Of a stretch of 35,409 nucleotides of DNA, positions 2,522 to 24,551 are shown piece by piece. Both the position numbers and the translations under genes were made by a program. Where the stretch lies: positions 1-35,409 of IMG/VR virus record IMGVR_UViG_3300038701_001150. One strand, 5' to 3'. The notes beneath the pieces were generated by a model. It was not told where the DNA came from, ran no database searches, and saw nothing but the letters and a program-made list of their open reading frames with translations. Source of the stretch: a virus. Position 1 is the stretch's first letter. Every line of letters begins with the position of its first letter.

Positions 2522-4529
2522 ATAGTCCTCTTCCGTTTACGTCTGCGCTGAATTGCGCGACTTCGTTTAACGTGCTTTCACGTTGTTCCATGGCTGCTTT
2601 TGAGGTCTTAAGTCCTGCCTCATACGCCTTTAACTCTAATTCTTGTTTTCTTAATGCCAGATCACCAGCCGTCTTTTGCTCATCAAGACGAAGTTTGGCA
2701 ATCTCTATCTGGTGCTTTCTTAAATCAGCATCATTATCAAACTTCTCAGCACGGGCTTTGATTTCAATCTCTTGTTGCTTATCTACAAGCTGTTGCTGCA
2801 ACTGGCTTATTTGGCCCTGTAACGCTTGAATACCTTGCTGCATTTGCTCGTTTTGTGATTGCAATGCCATGACTTGCGGGTCAAGCTCTTCATCAAGGAT
2901 TTTCGGGTCAATGATCTTTCTCATTCGATCAGACATAGCCTGCGCCCCTGCAAAATCAGAATACTTAAACATTAAATCGCCCATGACATTCATAAGCTGC
3001 GGCTGTGTTGTTAAGACTTTCTCAAAGAAAGCGGAGGCCTCTTGTCTCATTGTGGCATATGATGCACCCGTGACAACCTGAATTGTATATGATCCGTTTG
3101 TCAGATAATAATGACGCTCTTGCCCCTCAACTAACTCACCATTGATACCAACACGGTCGTTTGTCTCTTCCTTGCCAATAATCTGGGCTATTTGTGGCTC
3201 ATTATGGATGCGACTTATCATGCTGTACATTATTCGCCCTGCATGACGTATGGCCCGCGTTAGGTTGTCAGCAAAGTGATAAACAACTCTATCACCTTCA
3301 CGCTGCCTGTTGCCTATCGCAATACCTGATATAGCGTTGTCCTGTTGCCCTAAAAAGCTGTCGTAAAGCCCCATTGTCGAGCGGATATCCATAACTGATT
3401 GCTGGCGGGCTTGAACAATACCGGAAGGAATTTGAACAGGTGGTGTAAACTGTGGGGGGTTTGCAGGACGGCCGCTTGCATCCGTTCCTTTATAGCGCAA
3501 TACAGCCGCCTTGTCAGGATTAGTCCAATCCTCTGCGTAATCTTCTACTGTGCCTTCAACCGCCGTTATATGCGCCTTGGGGGCCTTCATAAGCAATTCA
3601 GCTTCCGTGCTAGCCCAATAATTATGAAGCTGCTGCGCCTGTTTAGATCGACGAATAAGCGACAACAGATTGCGCTTTCCGTCCACCCATGATTCTTCGC
3701 CATATACAGGAACGATGGGGATGTATTCGGCTGGGAATGTGGTTTCTTTTAAAATATCTCTGCCGGATAGCTTATAACGCTTTACAATTCTACGGCTTGT
3801 CTTGCGTTTTTTTTCAAATTCAGGCTCTTTGTCGCTTTCGATTTGTTGCCCGAAATCATCAATGGCAATCCAATAAGGCTCTTCTTCAATTTCAAAATAT
3901 TCAGCAACTATAATATAGTCATCTTCACAATCCACACCGTCAATTTGAAAAGATACCGGATCAAAGCTAGGGTAATCTTTTTTAAATTCTTCTTTGTGCA
4001 TTTTATCAAAGACAAACGCACATTTCATATCACTGCCATCCGGCTCAATCGAATTAGGATCAATCAAAACAGACGCAGGATTAATAACGCGGTCAATAAA
4101 TATTTCTTGATTAAAAGATGTTTGGTCTATGTAATCATGATCAAGGCGGAAGAACCCGATAGACGACTTAACCGCAAAGTTCGCAGCCGTATCAAACGCA
4201 TCGTCGGCATTTGATCGAACTAAAATTTCCCTGATTTTTCCTTCAATAATTTCAGCAGTTTCGACATCACCGCCATCGGCCGCAATTACCTCAATTGAGG
4301 GCGTATTCATGCGTATATCATTCGATACCTGATTAACAAACTGCGATAGCTGGTCTATCTGCAAAACAGGCTTGCCAGCAAGTCTACGGCTTTTTGCGTC
4401 TTGCGCATCCCATTGCGAATTAGGCTCGTCAGAAAGAAACTCTAAGTCCTCTTTGTGTTTATCAAAGATTTCCCGCCAATACTCACTGTATTGCTTTGCT
4501 TTTTCGTTATATTCTTGAATATCAGACAA
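2514..4529 (-). CDS. Portal protein, P22 gp1-like (671 aa)
   Basis: The dodecameric portal ring is the DNA entry and exit channel and the terminase docking site. The N-terminus (EYWREIFDKHKEDLEFLSDE, SQWDAQDAKSRRLAGKPVL, then DQLSQFVNQVSNDIRMN) is typical of the P22-type portal family, as is NPASVLIDPNS further in. Residues about 575-650 form a Gln-rich coiled coil, matching the C-terminal barrel of P22 portals. Length is near the 725 residues of P22. It starts behind AGGATGG. The 112 bases between it and TerL contain only a 13-codon ORF without ribosome-binding site. Confidence 0.92.
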   Translation of the reverse strand: MSDIQEYNEKAKQYSEYWREIFDKHKEDLEFLSDEPNSQWDAQDAKSRRLAGKPVLQIDQLSQFVNQVSNDIRMNTPSIEVIAADGGDVETAEIIEGKIREILVRSNADDAFDTAANFAVKSSIGFFRLDHDYIDQTSFNQEIFIDRVINPASVLIDPNSIEPDGSDMKCAFVFDKMHKEEFKKDYPSFDPVSFQIDGVDCEDDYIIVAEYFEIEEEPYWIAIDDFGQQIESDKEPEFEKKRKTSRRIVKRYKLSGRDILKETTFPAEYIPIVPVYGEESWVDGKRNLLSLIRRSKQAQQLHNYWASTEAELLMKAPKAHITAVEGTVEDYAEDWTNPDKAAVLRYKGTDASGRPANPPQFTPPVQIPSGIVQARQQSVMDIRSTMGLYDSFLGQQDNAISGIAIGNRQREGDRVVYHFADNLTRAIRHAGRIMYSMISRIHNEPQIAQIIGKEETNDRVGINGELVEGQERHYYLTNGSYTIQVVTGASYATMRQEASAFFEKVLTTQPQLMNVMGDLMFKYSDFAGAQAMSDRMRKIIDPKILDEELDPQVMALQSQNEQMQQGIQALQGQISQLQQQLVDKQQEIEIKARAEKFDNDADLRKHQIEIAKLRLDEQKTAGDLALRKQELELKAYEAGLKTSKAAMEQRESTLNEVAQFSADVNGRGLYD

Positions 4530-9455: not shown

Positions 9456-9478
9456 AATCTTGCCTTTCGTTATCTTGA

Positions 9479-9558: not shown

Positions 9559-9596
9559 TAGAATACCACGGACGAAATGAATGTCAAATAGTTTTT
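9559..9596 (-). promoter_or_regulatory. Early promoter, AAAAACTATTTGACA family (copy 3)
   Basis: On the minus strand AAAAACTATTTGACA (9596-9582) includes a consensus -35 TTGACA (9587-9582). A -10 candidate TATTCT (9565-9560, spacer 16) or ATTCTA (9564-9559, spacer 17) follows. The box overlaps the last codons of the upstream gene. The same 15-mer occurs at 13447 and 16859 on the plus strand. It drives the 75-aa gene and probably the genes down to GcrA. Confidence 0.8.
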
Positions 9597-10864: not shown

Positions 10865-10924
10865 TAAAAAAACCCTTAAATGATACCCCTTAGCTTGCGG
10901 ACTAAGGAATATCGTTTAAAGGTT
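10865..10924 (-). terminator. Strong intrinsic terminator after the IbrA-like gene
   Basis: On the minus strand AACCTTTAAACGATA, a mismatch, and CCTTAG form one arm. CTAAGG, a mismatch, and TATCATTTAAGGGTT form the other, with an eight-base loop. A seven-base T-run follows (10872-10866). The stem is about 20 bp with small bulges. It ends the IbrB-IbrA transcript and isolates it from the replication genes starting at 10807. The remaining spacer 10925-11005 holds only short GC-rich inverted repeats. Confidence 0.85.
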
Positions 10925-11005
10925 TTAATGCGCTCCGCAAGACGCGCTTAATATTTATAAGGGGCTGATTGCAACAGTACACCCCGCACTTGTATTATAT
11001 CCATT

Positions 11006-12226
11006 TTAATTAGATATTAAAGGAACATTTTCTTCTAATGATTTTTGCTTTTTCATCTGTTTAAATTTTTGCCAAGCTTCACTTTTCGGCTGCGTCTGCC
11101 CAAGTCCTTTACACCAATAATCATTTCTTAACAAACATTTACACATTCTTCGCCAAGATGGAGCCCAGCATTTTGCTTCCAGTTCAAGGGGGGCTTCTTG
11201 TGGTATATCTTCATATCCCCTTGTATGCCAGCCGCGTATAAATTTTTTAAATCGTTCTTCATAATGTTTTCTGGTTGGCGGCGGCAAAGTTCTTAAAAGC
11301 ATATTCGTAAAGCTTTGCCATGTGTGGCCTTCGGGTTTTGTTATTTTATTATAGCCGTTTATGTTCCCGCTTTCTTGTATATACAAAGAGCCGCTGTTCG
11401 CGCCACTTACCCTTGTCACTAACTTAAACCATGTTTCTGGTTCTATTATATGATAAAGCCATAAGCCTTTTCTTTGGTCGTCTCCATATGGCTGACAAAG
11501 CCTTTGGTCTGATAATGGAACGCCTGCCATCTGCATCTTGTCATATATAGGATTATGGCATTTTTTAGTAACTGCGATATATTTCCAAATATCATCAGCG
11601 AGCCAATCATATATAGGATAAACATTGTAAACTTTATCAACAATTTTTGTTGTGTATCTACGCGCCTTCATCATGAGGTCTTTCTTTTCCCATGTGGCGA
11701 TGGCGCAATAACGGTGAAGGCTTTCTTGCGCCCTAATTCCAATAAACCCCGCCGTTAGCTTCCCCTGCCCGTACCATTCGCCAAACAAAACTATAAATTC
11801 TTCAAATTCCATTTTTGGAAAGGCAAACGGGTAATCATCAACACCTTTTGCGAATTTCGGCTTTTCACGTATCCAAATATCTTTTTTATCTTCATCCCAC
11901 GCACACCATTGAGGTTCATAATTTGTTAAGGCATTTCTTAATTTCATCGGAACACATATCCAATGAGGATCAATATTATCCTTGTACAATTCAAACATTT
12001 CCAAGGCGTGTTTTATTGTGTCACTGTATTGGGCTTCCAAATCTATAAACATAACTCCAACTTTAATGTTTCTTTTAATAGCCTCTTCCATAACAAGATG
12101 GAATAAAACGGTGCTATCTTTCCCCCCAGAAAAAGCTATAAAAGAGCGCTCAACATCATCTAAAGTTCTTGAAATTCTTTCTTTCGCAGCTTCATATACA
12201 TTTTTTTGTAAATATCTTTTACCCAT
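11006..12226 (-). CDS. ibrA-like: IbrA-like PAPS-reductase-family PP-loop protein, DUF3440 type (406 aa)
   Basis: The N-terminus carries the PP-loop SGGKDST (residues 33-39), which in this superfamily binds ATP or adenylated sulfate. Later motifs include FIGIRAQESLHRY, YPIYDWLADDIWKY, HNPIYDKMQMAG and RVSGANSGSLY, which I recognise as the IbrA/YbdN (DUF3440) group. The C-terminal part is Cys- and Trp-rich (AKCWAPSWRRMCKCLLRNDY). It starts eight bases after the IbrB-like gene behind AGAGGTTAAT and is followed by a terminator, so the two form one operon. In E. coli, IbrA with IbrB activates genes for immunoglobulin-binding proteins; the chemistry is unknown. Related PP-loop enzymes include DndC of DNA phosphorothioation. 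Confidence 0.85.
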   Translation of the reverse strand: MGKRYLQKNVYEAAKERISRTLDDVERSFIAFSGGKDSTVLFHLVMEEAIKRNIKVGVMFIDLEAQYSDTIKHALEMFELYKDNIDPHWICVPMKLRNALTNYEPQWCAWDEDKKDIWIREKPKFAKGVDDYPFAFPKMEFEEFIVLFGEWYGQGKLTAGFIGIRAQESLHRYCAIATWEKKDLMMKARRYTTKIVDKVYNVYPIYDWLADDIWKYIAVTKKCHNPIYDKMQMAGVPLSDQRLCQPYGDDQRKGLWLYHIIEPETWFKLVTRVSGANSGSLYIQESGNINGYNKITKPEGHTWQSFTNMLLRTLPPPTRKHYEERFKKFIRGWHTRGYEDIPQEAPLELEAKCWAPSWRRMCKCLLRNDYWCKGLGQTQPKSEAWQKFKQMKKQKSLEENVPLISN

Positions 12227-12234
12227 ATTAACCT

Positions 12235-13410
12235 CTAGTAAATATCTGATTGTCTGGTTGTTTTTGCTTCGTTCATGGTTAATTCATTCATGCCACGATA
12301 TTTTAAGTATTCGTTTAAATATTTTAGGGCAATTTCATCGGCTGCATTTTGCTCTTCTTGAGTTAATAACTGCCATCCGCCACGAAATTCAGAAGATACA
12401 CCTGTTTCATAGCAAACCGCGGCTTGGCCTAGCCAAGCCAATCTATTCATAGCCTCATTGGTTAAATAATGTTCACATGAGTTTTCCCACTCTGTAACAA
12501 CACCACGCAAGGCTTTATCAAAACGCTCTGTATCTTTTAATAGGTTTGCAAAAGCTTGATGGCAGTCTTCTTTTCTCATGCCTTCTGGCGGTTTTGTTGC
12601 GTAAAATCCCGCTTTGTGGCATTCCCATTTGTCGAATGTATGAAACACGCGTTTTTCGTCGCTTGTGTTCACGGTTCTAAATTCTGTATCATCATCTTGA
12701 TAATCATCAACATGACCTTTTAAATCCTCAAAATCGTCTTCTGAAATAAATCCTTCAGCTTCCCAAGCCTTAGAGAACTCTCCGTCTGCGAATATTTCTT
12801 GCAATCCTGTAATTTGACAAAGGCGTAAAACTTCATCTTCATCCATCCCTAACTCTTTGCAAATACGGCTGTTTGTCCAATTGCGGCGTTTTAACTCAAT
12901 AACCATGTCTGACATAGCTTCAACTTTGTGTTTACCTCTTGCACGGTTATGCCTGACGGTGGATGCCATGCGATGTTCTCTATCGACTTGTTCGGCGCGT
13001 ATTTGAACAACAGGAAGGTATCCTTTAACCCGCGCTGTAATTTCTTTACACTCTTTACCAACTCTATGGCGGTGAAATCCATCAACAACCACAATATCGT
13101 CACCTTCTTCATTAGCCACAATAGGCTGCGTGTAACCATCAGCATCAATTGAGGTTCTCAATAGTTCCATTTCAGGTGGAGCGACACTGTTAGGATTATA
13201 ATCGTTAGCTTTTACTTTGCTGTTTATAACCCACTTAACAAAATCTACTGGCTCACTTTTAAATGGCGAAATTTTATGTAATTTTTCACGTATTGCATTT
13301 AATTGAGTTATCTTTTCTTCAATAGGTAAATTATTAAGATGATCGCATAAATCATCTATATTAAATTCTTTATCTTGATCTTTTGCAGCTTCTAATAAAT
13401 CGTATTGCAT
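12235..13410 (-). CDS. ibrB-like: IbrB-like ParB/Srx-domain protein with C-terminal extension (391 aa)
   Basis: Residues about 48-215 match the IbrB/YbdM ParB-like family: PFKSEPVDFVKWVI, ANDYNPNSVAPPEMELLRTS, DGYTQPIV, VVVDGFHRHRVGKE (DGFHRHR at 110-116) and RMASTVRHNRARGKH (147-161), then an HTH-like segment (SRICKELGMDEDEVLRLCQ). ParB/Srx folds often bind or hydrolyse nucleotides. Residues about 245-391 are an added domain (VFHTFDKWECHKAGFYATKP, CEHYLTNEAMNRLAWLGQAA, SSEFRGGWQLL) that I associate with other unnamed phage proteins. The E. coli relatives are much shorter. The start follows the shared leader ATAACGAAAGGCGGG. Confidence 0.82.
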   Translation of the reverse strand: MQYDLLEAAKDQDKEFNIDDLCDHLNNLPIEEKITQLNAIREKLHKISPFKSEPVDFVKWVINSKVKANDYNPNSVAPPEMELLRTSIDADGYTQPIVANEEGDDIVVVDGFHRHRVGKECKEITARVKGYLPVVQIRAEQVDREHRMASTVRHNRARGKHKVEAMSDMVIELKRRNWTNSRICKELGMDEDEVLRLCQITGLQEIFADGEFSKAWEAEGFISEDDFEDLKGHVDDYQDDDTEFRTVNTSDEKRVFHTFDKWECHKAGFYATKPPEGMRKEDCHQAFANLLKDTERFDKALRGVVTEWENSCEHYLTNEAMNRLAWLGQAAVCYETGVSSEFRGGWQLLTQEEQNAADEIALKYLNEYLKYRGMNELTMNEAKTTRQSDIY

Positions 13411-13507
13411 GTTCCCGCCTTTCGTTATTTATAAACCCTATCACAAAAAAACTATTTGACAACTATTTTATTGACGGTTATAAAAGATATAACGAAAGGT
13501 AAGTAAA
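13411..13507. promoter_or_regulatory. Divergent early control region
   Basis: This 97-bp spacer serves the IbrB-like gene leftward and the DGQHR gene rightward. Both genes have a TAACGAAAGG leader, so the region is flanked by the inverted pair CCTTTCGTTAT and ATAACGAAAGG. The plus-strand promoter (13456-13484) is consensus. On the minus strand a -10-like TATAAA lies directly before the IbrB leader, but I see no good -35. GTTATA-AAAGA-TATAAC (13478-13494) is a small perfect inverted repeat over the plus -10 and could be an operator. Confidence 0.7.
13447..13484 (+). promoter_or_regulatory. Early promoter, AAAAACTATTTGACA family (copy 1)
   Basis: TTGACA lies at 13456-13461 and TATAAA at 13479-13484, with the ideal 17-base spacer. 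The first 25 bases (13447-13471) are identical to those at 16859-16883, well beyond the -35, and 15 of them recur on the minus strand at 9596-9582. It drives the DGQHR-Erf-NinB-GapR-RusA operon. Confidence 0.9.
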
Positions 13508-14305
13508 ATGTTAAAAAATGAAATTATAAATGTAACCCCTGAAATAGCTTCTTCTATTTTAGGTAATAACAAAAAAAATAGACCAATAAGCAGCCCTACC
13601 GTTAATAGGTACACAACATTAATGTTAGACGGTAAGTGGCATTTTAATGGTGAGCCTATTATTATAGCCAATGACGGTACATTACTAGACGGGCAGCATA
13701 GATTATATGCAATAATAAAATCAAAAATGGCGCAACAATGCCTTGTTGTTTCTGGTGTATCTACAGATGCTTTTCCCACCATTGACACTGGCAAAAAAAG
13801 AACTGCATCCGATGCTATAGCAACATATGATGAAAAGTATCAAAAATATAGGATTATCATTGCGGCGGCGGTTGCACATATATTCCACTTTAAAACAGGT
13901 GAATATAAAAATTCTGATAGAAAAGTTACAGACCATAACGATGTAATAAAATTTTTAGAAAATAATCCTCGCGTGCTTGAATCCGTCATTGTTGCATCTG
14001 GATTAAATTACGCTAAAAAATTATGCCCTGCATCTGCTTTGGCCGCGCTTCATTTTCTTTTTTCTCAAAAAGACTACAGTTTAGCAAAAGAGTTTTTTGA
14101 AAAGTTAAATAGTGGTGAATATCTTTTCGATGGCCATCCTGTTTTAACTTTAAGAAACAAATTGGCAGACATTAGCATGACACCTGGATCAACAAAAAGC
14201 CGAGATATTATACCTTATATTGTAAAAGCTTGGAACTTATTCAGAAAAAAACAATCATGCAAGCGTCTTTACCTTAATCAAGATGCACCAACAATTATAG
14301 AATAG
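13508..14305 (+). CDS. DGQHR-motif protein (265 aa)
   Basis: The motif GTLLDGQHRLYAII (D61-G62-Q63-H64-R65) with upstream ISSPTVNRYTTLMLDGKWHF places this in the DGQHR/ParB-Srx-like group known from phages and from DndB-type proteins linked with DNA phosphorothioation. Residues about 85-105 (DAFPTIDTGKKRTASDAIA) and a helical C-terminal part (SALAALHFLFSQKDYSLAK, TPGSTKSRDIIPYIVKAW) follow the usual pattern of the phage members. The enzymatic role is unknown. It is the first gene of the rightward operon and diverges from an IbrB-like gene that also has a ParB/Srx domain. Confidence 0.8.
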   Translation: MLKNEIINVTPEIASSILGNNKKNRPISSPTVNRYTTLMLDGKWHFNGEPIIIANDGTLLDGQHRLYAIIKSKMAQQCLVVSGVSTDAFPTIDTGKKRTASDAIATYDEKYQKYRIIIAAAVAHIFHFKTGEYKNSDRKVTDHNDVIKFLENNPRVLESVIVASGLNYAKKLCPASALAALHFLFSQKDYSLAKEFFEKLNSGEYLFDGHPVLTLRNKLADISMTPGSTKSRDIIPYIVKAWNLFRKKQSCKRLYLNQDAPTIIE

Positions 14306-14314
14306 GATAAATCA

Positions 14315-14968
14315 ATGAGTGATAAGAATGTATTTCAATTAATATCTGCGGTGATGAAAGATTTATCAGAGGTTGGTATATCTAAAAACCAAAAGAACAC
14401 ATTTGACAACTATGTTTTCAGGGGAATTGATGATGTTTATAACACATTATCAAAAATCCTATCAAAGCATGGCCTGTTAATTATGCCGAACATTATCAAC
14501 CAGCACACTACGCAAGTCCAAACGCAAAAAGGCGGCGTGATGAACCATACAACATTGCAGGTAATTTACACGTTTATATCATCACATGACGGAACTACGC
14601 ATAGATTAAAAATGCGCGGCGAAGCGTTAGATAGAGGCGACAAGTCTATCAATAAGGCATTCACAGCTGCATATAAATATCTTTGCCTTCAGGTGTTTTG
14701 TATACCTTTACAGGGCAATGAGGATGCAGACAGTGAAAGTCATGTGATAGACCAGCGTCCGATGGAAAAGACGGGTAATAAAGTTTTAGACAGGGCTATA
14801 AACGACTATGTAACGCAGCTTAACCAATGCGCAAATATAGACGACTTAAAGGCCACATATAAAACGCTTTATAAGTATGCAGAGGAAAGCGGAGCAACAC
14901 AAGACCAGCTTGATATATTGGAAATGCAAAAGGATAACAAAAAAGAGCAATTATCAGTCAATCAATGA
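14315..14968 (+). CDS. erf: Erf-family single-strand annealing protein (217 aa)
   Basis: The ERF signature is clear: YVFRGIDDVYNTLSKILSKH (residues about 33-52), GLLIMPNI, then GEALDRGDKSINKAFTAAYK and YLCLQVFCIPLQGNEDADS (about 102-140). Such proteins form rings on ssDNA and promote strand annealing for phage recombination and genome circularisation, as P22 Erf does. The C-terminal 65 residues are helical and charged, as expected for a partner-binding tail. It starts behind AGGATAAATC and is followed by a remnant HNH gene and NinB. A Redbeta or RecT protein is excluded by these motifs. Confidence 0.92.
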   Translation: MSDKNVFQLISAVMKDLSEVGISKNQKNTFDNYVFRGIDDVYNTLSKILSKHGLLIMPNIINQHTTQVQTQKGGVMNHTTLQVIYTFISSHDGTTHRLKMRGEALDRGDKSINKAFTAAYKYLCLQVFCIPLQGNEDADSESHVIDQRPMEKTGNKVLDRAINDYVTQLNQCANIDDLKATYKTLYKYAEESGATQDQLDILEMQKDNKKEQLSVNQ

Positions 14969-14972
14969 TTAA

Positions 14973-15230
14973 TGCGGCGCAGTCGAAAATATACAGGCTG
15001 CGCATATACGGGCAAACAGTGATGGCGGTATGGGTATAAAGCCAAGCGATAACCGTGTGCTGCCTTTGTGTTTTAAGTGCCATGATATTCAACATAAGCA
15101 AGGTGAATATACATTCTGGGGCGGTTTTGACGGTGTTATAAAAGCAATAGAGTTGGCTTTGAGTTTATACCCGTTAAAACTAAACCTGATAAGAGAGAAA
15201 ATTATAAGAGCAAAAAAGGATTTGTTTTGA
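14973..15230 (+). pseudogene. 5'-truncated HNH endonuclease
   Basis: In one frame the sequence reads CGAVENIQAAHIRANSDGG then MGIKPSDNRVLPLCFKCHD, IQHKQGEYTFW, the pattern of small phage HNH nucleases (AAHIR, GGxGxKPSD, LPLCxxCHxxQHxxGE). The frame is closed by a TAA at 14970-14972. The first start codon is ATG 15030, after the AAHIR histidine. The family's N-terminal Cys pair is missing. A 24-codon ORF from ATG 14965, overlapping the erf stop as ATGA, ends at 15039 over ATG 15030 and could allow reinitiation. Only a 66-aa C-terminal part would be made, probably inactive as a nuclease. Confidence 0.65.
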
Positions 15231-15610
15231 AATTTATATTAATCAATGAAGATGTTAAACAAAACTGCTTAAAGCATCTTTTAAGCTTATATGCGGATGG
15301 AAAAAATGAGGTTGTTTTTCAGGAATCCATCACTAAGCGGACGTTAAATCAGAACGCCTTAGCTCATAAATGGCTAGGTTTAATCTGCGATTATACAGGC
15401 GACCATATAGACGACTTAAAAGACAACATTAAAGACGCTATGGGAGAATATAAAATTATTGAAAAGAACGGTAAAGATTACATTAAATATAATAGTTCAG
15501 CAAAGTTTTCAGTAAAAACAATGATGAATTTTATGACAGCAATAGAAATCATGGCAGGGGAACTAGGGATAGTTTTGCCATCAGCTCAATATTATGGATT
15601 AACAATATAG
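15227..15610 (+). CDS. ninB: NinB-like recombination protein (127 aa)
   Basis: The motif TKRTLNQNALAHKWLGLICD (residues about 36-55) and the C-terminal SSAKFSVKTMMNFMTAIEIM, then AGELGIVLP, are typical of the NinB/Orf family. Lambda NinB binds ssDNA and acts in the phage recombination pathway with annealing proteins. The start is TTG at 15227, overlapping the previous stop by four bases and preceded by AAGGATTTG; the next Met would remove the N-terminal beta strand. It belongs with Erf, the SSB-tail protein and RusA. Confidence 0.85.
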   Translation: MKFILINEDVKQNCLKHLLSLYADGKNEVVFQESITKRTLNQNALAHKWLGLICDYTGDHIDDLKDNIKDAMGEYKIIEKNGKDYIKYNSSAKFSVKTMMNFMTAIEIMAGELGIVLPSAQYYGLTI

Positions 15611-16547: not shown

Positions 16548-16860
16548 ACTGCCGTTCCCGCCGTCAATTCTAAACCCAAACCGCAAAGCACATTGGGCGG
16601 TAAAGTCAAAAGCATTCAAAAAATACAAAAACGAATGCGCTTGGATTGCAAAACAAATGCAGCCATGCACTGAATTTTATTTAATCATTCACCCGCCAGA
16701 CAACCGCCGCCGCGATAGGGACAACATTATAGGCGCACTAAAGGCCGCACAAGATGGCTTAGCACTTGCATGGGGTATTGATGACAGCAAATTTACAATC
16801 ATGTATTCTACACTTCAAGAGCCTGTAAAGGGCGGGAAAATAATCATTAAAAAGATATAA
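16540..16860 (+). CDS. rusA: RusA Holliday-junction resolvase (106 aa)
   Basis: The start ELPFPPSILNPNRKAHWAV and the acidic cluster NRRRDRDNIIGALKAAQDGL, AWGIDDSKF hold the catalytic Asp set of RusA (D59 and D61, with D81/D82; the family needs three Asp). RusA dimers resolve branched DNA in phage recombination and can help packaging. The start is GTG at 16540, overlapping the previous stop by eight bases; there is no later start that keeps the conserved N-terminus. The end overlaps promoter copy 2. Confidence 0.9.
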   Translation: MIELPFPPSILNPNRKAHWAVKSKAFKKYKNECAWIAKQMQPCTEFYLIIHPPDNRRRDRDNIIGALKAAQDGLALAWGIDDSKFTIMYSTLQEPVKGGKIIIKKI

Positions 16861-16897
16861 AAACTATTTGACAACTATTTTATATCGTGCCAATATT
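16859..16897 (+). promoter_or_regulatory. Early promoter, AAAAACTATTTGACA family (copy 2)
   Basis: TTGACA is at 16868-16873. A weaker -10, CAATAT (16891-16896, spacer 17) or AATATT (spacer 18), follows. The first 25 bases (16859-16883) equal copy 1. The box begins in the rusA stop codon. It drives the downstream accessory operon starting at 16919 behind the leader TTAACGAAAGGCAAG. Confidence 0.85.
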
Positions 16898-16918
16898 CTT
16901 TTAACGAAAGGCAAGATC

Positions 16919-23832: not shown

Positions 23833-23876
23833 GTTTTAGTATAGCATTTATTTTAAAGTTGGGATATTATTTTGAC

Positions 23877-24551
23877 ATGAATAAACACGATATCAGAAAA
23901 GTGTTTAATGAATCCGCCTTAGTGGATTGTATTTCGTATTCAGGCAATCTTGTATCCATCACCAAGCCCAATCCGGATAATATTCAAATCGAAGATATCT
24001 GCATGGGTCTTTCACGCGCATCACGCTATAACGGCCAGCTTCGCGTTAATTACAATGTCGCGCAACACACAACCCTTGTCGCTGATCTATTGTTGTACTT
24101 TCCGACGCTATGGGGCAGCGAGAGACGAACCAGCAAGTCAATGGATACACTACAACGCTATGCCCTGTTGCATGACGCTGCCGAGGCTTATACAGGCGAT
24201 ATAACCAAAAACATTAAAGAGGCTATCAAAAAGAAAACCAGCGTCCTGGAGGACTTGGAAAATGCCCTTGATGAGGCCGTCCATGAAAAATTCGGGATGC
24301 AATTCCCGCTTGATAAGAAAACTAAACGTGTATTAAAGGCCGCTGATCATGCGGCTTTTTTTATAGAAGTTAATTCATTCGCAACACCTGCACAAAGAGA
24401 TCGCGGCTTAGTGAATGTCGTCGCTGACTTCATTCGCGCCAAGGGTATCAATCCTGATTTCTTCGATACCCATAAAATTAAATGCATTAATAGCAGTATG
24501 GCCAAGTCTGCCCTGCAAAACAGAATGAGGCTGTGTTTTGGGCAAGGTTAA
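23877..24551 (+). CDS. HD-domain phosphohydrolase, YfbR-like (224 aa)
   Basis: The HD metal site is visible: VAQHTTLVADLLLYF then ALLHDAAEAYTGDITKNIK (H and HD followed by E and D), with a later D in LKAADHAAFFIE. The start (SYSGNLVSITKPNPDNIQIE, then DICMGLSRASRYNGQ) is that of phage and bacterial 5'-nucleotidase-like HD proteins. These dephosphorylate deoxynucleotides and may tune the dNTP pool. ATG 23877 is preferred to an in-frame TTG at 23859, though its ribosome-binding site is weak. It lies opposite to the late genes around it and overlaps the HNH gene. Confidence 0.85.
   Translation: MNKHDIRKVFNESALVDCISYSGNLVSITKPNPDNIQIEDICMGLSRASRYNGQLRVNYNVAQHTTLVADLLLYFPTLWGSERRTSKSMDTLQRYALLHDAAEAYTGDITKNIKEAIKKKTSVLEDLENALDEAVHEKFGMQFPLDKKTKRVLKAADHAAFFIEVNSFATPAQRDRGLVNVVADFIRAKGINPDFFDTHKIKCINSSMAKSALQNRMRLCFGQG

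Follow-up and report, generated by a model that had tools for sequence, protein, structure and literature searches.

Genes of the ibrB-ibrA locus

The window examined here is the entire 35,409-base IMG/VR virus record IMGVR_UViG_3300038701_001150, and the system in question is a pair of adjacent minus-strand genes related to ibrA and ibrB of Escherichia coli, together with a domain that accompanies them. The IbrA-like protein (11006..12226, minus strand, 406 residues) comprises a PP-loop ATP-pyrophosphatase domain of the 3'-phosphoadenosine 5'-phosphosulfate (PAPS) reductase fold (residues ~1-235), with the motif SGGKDST at residues 33-39, followed by a DUF3440 domain (residues ~235-400). The IbrB open reading frame (12235-13410, minus strand, 391 residues), which contains the motif DGFHRHR, encodes a ParB-fold part (residues ~1-225; 12736..13410, minus strand) made up of a ParB/Srx N-domain and a helix-turn-helix, and a C-terminal domain (residues ~253-376; 12283..12654, minus strand) that is here named IbrC. 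A gene for a 265-residue protein with a DGQHR motif (13508..14305, plus strand) diverges from ibrB across a control region that the two share. The initial annotation of this stretch gave the three open reading frames, their motifs and their divergent layout exactly as found here, and proposed that the three proteins form one system. Its third part, the DGQHR protein, is replaced in this analysis by a component that it overlooked, the C-terminal domain of IbrB: the module very probably consists of IbrA, IbrB and IbrC, with IbrC fused to IbrB in the window.

The pair itself is already known, IbrA and IbrB having reportedly been named in 2002, and no paper on their biochemistry was found in the literature searched. 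In the papers searched we found neither the third component, with its shuffling and fusion, nor the absence of cysteine from the active site of IbrA, nor the altered ParB motif of IbrB. IbrA/IbrB of the E. coli ECOR-9 genetic island and of phage PhiR5_2, and YbdN/YbdM of E. coli K-12, belong to the same two-gene family and are likewise encoded by adjacent genes, although the order is B-A in the window and A-B in E. coli. The window IbrA is 39-40% identical to IbrA and YbdN over its full length (40% to YbdN over 396 residues) and IbrB is 53% identical to YbdM over the 198 residues of the ParB part, whereas the extra C-terminal domain of the window IbrB is lacking in YbdM and in IbrB of PhiR5_2. 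The chromosomal Listeria pair lmo1310/lmo1309, compared by domains and not by sequence, has the same combination of DUF3440 and ParB, and is listed as a putative toxin-antitoxin system through guilt by association from its neighbourhood (PMC7020466).

Conservation of the IbrA-IbrB-IbrC module

Scans of IMG/VR with IbrA and IbrB yielded 135 distinct loci with flanks. With one locus counted per contig, and with two isolate phages and the window taken in, there are 132 IbrA loci, which cluster at 80% identity into 81 lineages. IbrB, the sole near-universal neighbour, was found near IbrA in 76 of the 81 viral lineages and invariably shares its strand; at cellular loci the two are side by side in 80 of 81 cases. 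Phage isolate records matching the IbrA and IbrB families number 216 and 218, respectively, with near-identical host tallies; isolates with laboratory hosts that carry the family include M. smegmatis phage Kamiyu and S. thermophilus phage CHPC1230. The pair recognized in the initial annotation is thus real, near-obligate and uncharacterised.

A profile of IbrC detected it as a separate open reading frame in 44 lineages and fused to IbrB in 23, and found it absent in 15, counts that favour IbrC-bearing loci because the IbrB scan used peptides of the C-terminal region. Among 57 IbrA-seeded loci, which are the closest relatives, IbrC is missing solely in L023, L039 and L057, two of which are truncated near IbrB by a contig end or an incomplete open reading frame. 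The component occurs in the orders B-C-A, BC-A, C-A-B and A-B-C. A quickly built IbrA tree of 78 lineages, in which some branches are weak and a long-branch warning was raised, shows at least 15 changes of gene order, with IbrC retained in most lineages. Three isolate phage records contain IbrC, each with IbrB adjoining, and B-C-A operons are present in Microcystis phage Mwe-JY13 and Pseudomonas phage Amjad_SA. At cellular loci IbrC is found in 3 of 81, with 77 of 81 being plain A-B.

IbrC carries the conserved motifs WEC and W..SCEHYLTN..NR.AW.GQA, and its structure is predicted confidently (predicted local distance difference test, pLDDT, 93-98). It has no PHROG match and, in Pfam, solely a sub-threshold match to DUF1367 (E 8e-4); Foldseek searches of the PDB with IbrB matched the ParB part alone, and the BFVD matches listed for IbrB are mostly ParB proteins, with none identified as IbrC. 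The lone IbrC of Mwe-JY13 (L002:13930-14355) is annotated as "ParB/sulfiredoxin", a misannotation since it matches the C-terminal domain alone. At locus L061, two distinct IbrA copies (208-1524 and 2873-4123) lie on either side of a single IbrB and IbrC. In 16 lineages a lone gene of 72-109 codons near full-length IbrA corresponds to the C-terminal ~80 residues of IbrA, where DUF3440 ends (loci L104-L108 and L120-L139; for example, L108:2295-2555 and L121:10895-11155).

Active site of IbrA

IbrA matches PF01507 with 57.5 bits (cut-off 22.5; 2.3e-15) and PF11922/DUF3440 with 122 bits (cut-off 25; 2.8e-35). Its AlphaFold model (pLDDT 90) has CysH and CysD as its best PDB matches and also resembles flavin adenine dinucleotide (FAD) synthase and PP-loop enzymes of tRNA. 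IbrA shares with CysH, CysD and DndC the PP-loop ATP-pyrophosphatase fold and the SGGKDS and R..ES..R motifs, but differs from them in its extra DUF3440 domain and in its lack of the catalytic ECGxH and of conserved cysteines. In an alignment of 205 homologs drawn from viruses, isolates and cells, residues S33, G35, K36, D37, S38, E64, R165, E168, R172, D207, D212, Y228 and R242 are invariant in all 205. Because this PP-loop site is complete and invariant, IbrA should still, judging from its sequence, cleave ATP to AMP and pyrophosphate and adenylate some substrate. By contrast, the alignment contains no invariant cysteine (the commonest, C372, is found in 170 of 205), deep-branch phage IbrA proteins lack nearly all of the common ones, and the catalytic motif of CysH (ECGxH, searched as ECG[IL]H) is present in 0 of 205. 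These absences argue against PAPS reduction and against a conserved iron-sulfur or persulfide route, and sulfur transfer by IbrA was rejected on cysteine conservation. They also suggest that the label "PAPS reductase", often taken to denote a phage sulfur-metabolism gene (e.g. PMC10434257), is misleading for this family, which spans hundreds of phages, E. coli K-12 and Clostridia.

ParB-fold part of IbrB

IbrB matches the ParB-like family phrog_2159 (4e-69), and its model (pLDDT 88) matches Noc, KorB and ParB in Foldseek (E 8e-6; 7nfu and 8qa9, E ~1e-5), by which the ParB N-domain and helix-turn-helix fold are present. Like the CTP-dependent DNA clamps ParB, Noc and KorB, IbrB has the ParB N-fold, a GxxR loop and a helix-turn-helix; alignment to a ParB pairs the QP and GERR loops of the latter with TQP and DGFHR in IbrB. 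The standard ENxQR motif of these clamps is not present in IbrB, its position being taken by RxNRAxGxH, and IbrC replaces the usual C-terminal domain. RxNRAxGxH is found in 200 and DG[FY]HR in 208 of 212 IbrB homologs. No ParA is annotated beside IbrB in the isolate phages examined. Retention of the ParB loops together with alteration of ENxQR makes nucleotide use by IbrB plausible, in a manner not standard for ParB. IbrB is predicted to be a ParB/KorB-like DNA-binding domain that probably binds a nucleotide.

Neighbouring genes

Replication and recombination genes lie near IbrA/IbrB in the window, as they do in many relatives. Several isolate phages have a terminase or an annotated methyltransferase near IbrA; in Kamiyu and Laroye a terminase is found within a few genes downstream of the deep-branch IbrA locus. 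A SNF2 helicase is encoded upstream of IbrA at 13 cellular loci (genome assemblies), and a GNAT-like protein between IbrA and IbrB at about 11, the latter also adjoining IbrA in some phages. IbrA - GNAT-like - IbrB operons occur beside housekeeping genes in Clostridia chromosomes (L285, L297, L301 and L303) and also at L241 and L095, the GNAT gene of L095 coming after a B-C-A operon. In phages of Mycobacterium, Arthrobacter, Bacillus and Rhizobium, IbrA also adjoins a second ParB-fold protein, which belongs to a different family from IbrB; deep-branch IbrA is flanked by IbrB and such a protein in Kamiyu (L311), Laroye (L312), Bacillus phage 031MP002 (L313) and Rhizobium phage P11VFA (L314). 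In E. coli K-12 (L228; 632000-639000), ybdNM lies between ybdL, encoding methionine transaminase, and citR-dsbG-ahpC, and several of these neighbours are thiol or sulfur related.

The DGQHR gene

The DGQHR gene is a mere neighbour of the module, to which its only tie is the control region shared with ibrB. Its product belongs to phrog_5931 (3e-62), a family of unknown function, and the gene is the first of an early operon that continues with genes for ERF (14315-14968), NinB (15227-15610) and RusA; in isolate phages, too, the DGQHR gene is typically early, adjoining repressor, replication or recombination genes. A viral scan with the single DGQHR protein gave no matches and one with a family alignment at least 585, and the profile used for neighbourhood counts was built from 85 phage sequences. 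The initial annotation had suggested counting how often the DGQHR gene lies near IbrA/IbrB homologues, and the counts revealed no conserved neighbourhood in either direction: among profile-detectable relatives, and with many loci being fragments with short flanks, DGQHR genes are absent from the 131 other IbrA loci (80 other lineages) except for a degenerate relative at L088, and IbrA, IbrB and IbrC are all absent from 89 DGQHR loci (~1.2 Mb). With the DGQHR family present in 86 of 50,697 phage records, 81 lineages should by chance yield ~0.14 such pairings; the one in the window is what drew attention to the gene. On these two-way counts the DGQHR protein is rejected as the third component of the module. 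The sole case at L088 (5167-6063) is a distant protein of the DGQHR family with a degenerate motif (NGKHTSN), encoded two genes after IbrA.

The motif is what the neighbouring gene has in common with DndB and other DGQHR proteins, which are unlinked to IbrA/IbrB. The DndB model PF14072 did not match the window protein, and matched 2 of 10 relatives below threshold (best E 0.0017), so that kinship with DndB was rejected. No PDB relatives of the DGQHR protein were found.

Regulation of the locus

The strong terminator noted in the initial annotation after the gene pair is borne out by a near-perfect 25-bp hairpin followed by a T-run 3' of ibrA (10869..10926, minus strand), predicted to be the intrinsic terminator that ends the ibrB-ibrA transcript. 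A 151-nt stretch around it folds with -48.7 kcal/mol, as compared with -33.5 +/- 3.6 for shuffled sequences (z -4.2), and 0 of 200 shuffles folded as well.

The 97 bp between the divergent starts (13411..13507) contain promoter-like elements, a repeat and leader sequences, and the repeats and leaders support the divergent promoter that had been predicted there. A putative plus-strand promoter resembling TTGACA-17-TATAAA lies within and after the repeat AAAAACTATTTGACAACTATTTTAT (13447-13471, plus strand), of which an identical copy is found at 16859-16883 (plus strand); with the AACTATTTGACA core counted, a third occurrence lies at 9582-9593 (minus strand). Near-identical leaders sharing ATAACGAAAGG are located at 13418-13428 (minus strand) and 13489-13499 (plus strand), and leaders of the form (A/T)TAACGAAAGG precede the two divergent genes as well as two further operons, where they lie at 9463-9473 (minus strand) and 16901-16911 (plus strand). 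This repetition of a predicted early promoter/operator and leader at four operons suggests that the phage controls them as a single regulon, with ibrBA and the DGQHR operon among its members, and IbrA with IbrB-IbrC is probably expressed as an early operon from a promoter of its own.

Proposed function and alternatives

A DNA-directed function, which the initial annotation had included among its suggestions, is judged the most likely, on the grounds of the ParB/KorB-like fold and the DNA-processing neighbours. DNA is the favoured target, given that IbrA/IbrB are located in replication/recombination modules or near terminase and that some lineages have SNF2, GNAT or annotated methyltransferase genes adjoining them. 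We tentatively propose that IbrB, with IbrC, would load on DNA and bring IbrA there; that IbrA would use ATP to activate, by adenylation, a chemical group of the DNA or of a molecule linked to it; and that a cysteine-independent DNA modification would result, shielding or marking the phage genome. The reported effect of IbrAB on transcription in E. coli would then come from the DNA mark or from the binding of IbrB. As a whole, the statement that IbrA, IbrB and IbrC make up the module and that it modifies DNA with ATP is possible at somewhat less than even chances, and the modification mechanism taken by itself is held equally tentatively.

Several observations weigh against DNA modification. 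A conserved set of base-modification genes beside IbrA/IbrB was not found in phages (81 lineages), and E. coli K-12, which carries ybdNM, is not known to have an unexplained DNA modification. The ybdNM operon of that strain is repressed by CitR (PMC9068703), and the known evidence on E. coli IbrAB, as reported in PMC7649339 (citing Sandt 2002), is regulatory. Chromosomal copies lie by housekeeping genes in Clostridia, and the Listeria pair consists of core genes (PMC7020466), which suggests a role wider than phage DNA.

The main rival, somewhat unlikely in our estimate, is a transcription co-regulator that leaves DNA unmodified, in which IbrB would act as a KorB/Noc-like DNA clamp at promoters of the phage or the host, with IbrA as its nucleotide-sensing or allosteric partner. 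It would account for the activation of prophage eib genes by E. coli IbrAB, as described in PMC7649339 (citing Sandt 2002), for the description of IbrA/IbrB as prophage transcriptional regulators (PMC8813620), for the annotation of many phage copies as co-activator of prophage gene expression, and for the Foldseek matches of IbrB to KorB, a repressor. However, invariance of the entire catalytic site of IbrA in such diverse homologs goes beyond the need of a pure regulator, and the helicase, GNAT and recombination neighbours also speak for more than regulation.

Distinctly less probable is that a small molecule, a free nucleotide or tRNA is what IbrA produces or modifies, with IbrB as a ParB/Srx-type kinase or NTPase acting on the same substrate and not on DNA. 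Proteins of ParB/Srx fold such as SerK, SbnI and sulfiredoxin are phosphotransferases that act on small molecules or proteins, the model of IbrA resembles FAD synthase and tRNA enzymes, and ybdNM lies beside ybdL and citR-dsbG-ahpC; against this, IbrB keeps a helix-turn-helix after its ParB fold, and phage copies are often within DNA-processing modules.

Sulfur chemistry, whether DndC-like phosphorothioation, PAPS reduction or base thiolation, is most improbable: the PAPS-reductase domain, a weak similarity to DndC and the frequency of C372 are in its favour, but no cysteine is common to all members, ECGxH is wholly absent, and the DndC model TIGR03183 scores 32.4 bits against a cut-off of 290.4. 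Together with the failure of the DGQHR protein to pass the DndB model, this removes the analogy with DndC/DndB phosphorothioation that the sequence had at first suggested.

Joint action of DGQHR, IbrB and IbrA, largely refuted already, retains almost no likelihood, since the common 97-bp control region with its near-identical leaders, the degenerate gene of L088 and the second ParB-fold gene beside IbrA in several phages are outweighed by the absence of the partner from all other IbrA and DGQHR loci, L088 apart, and by the presence of the same promoter repeat and leaders at the heads of other operons.

Beyond the DNA modification proposed above, the module might represent a new class of DNA-modification machine, in which a PP-loop enzyme needing neither cysteine nor iron-sulfur would be loaded onto DNA by a clamp of the ParB type whose nucleotide pocket has diverged, and with which many unrelated phages would mark their genomes; cellular YbdN/YbdM-type versions would do without IbrC, in some lineages having GNAT or SNF2 instead. 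We consider this broader reading unlikely. The third component, the evidence against cysteine chemistry and the ybdNM version of K-12 bring the biochemical role of the family within reach of experiment in a laboratory strain.

Other features of the window

The virion genes of the window encode the major head protein (capsid), scaffold, portal, terminase, head closure, DNA ejection and tail proteins. No Rfam elements were found in the window. A plus-strand gene (23859-24551) encodes a protein that matches phage deoxynucleoside 5'-monophosphate phosphatases and has weaker matches to dATP triphosphohydrolases; such genes are sometimes found in modified-nucleotide phages.

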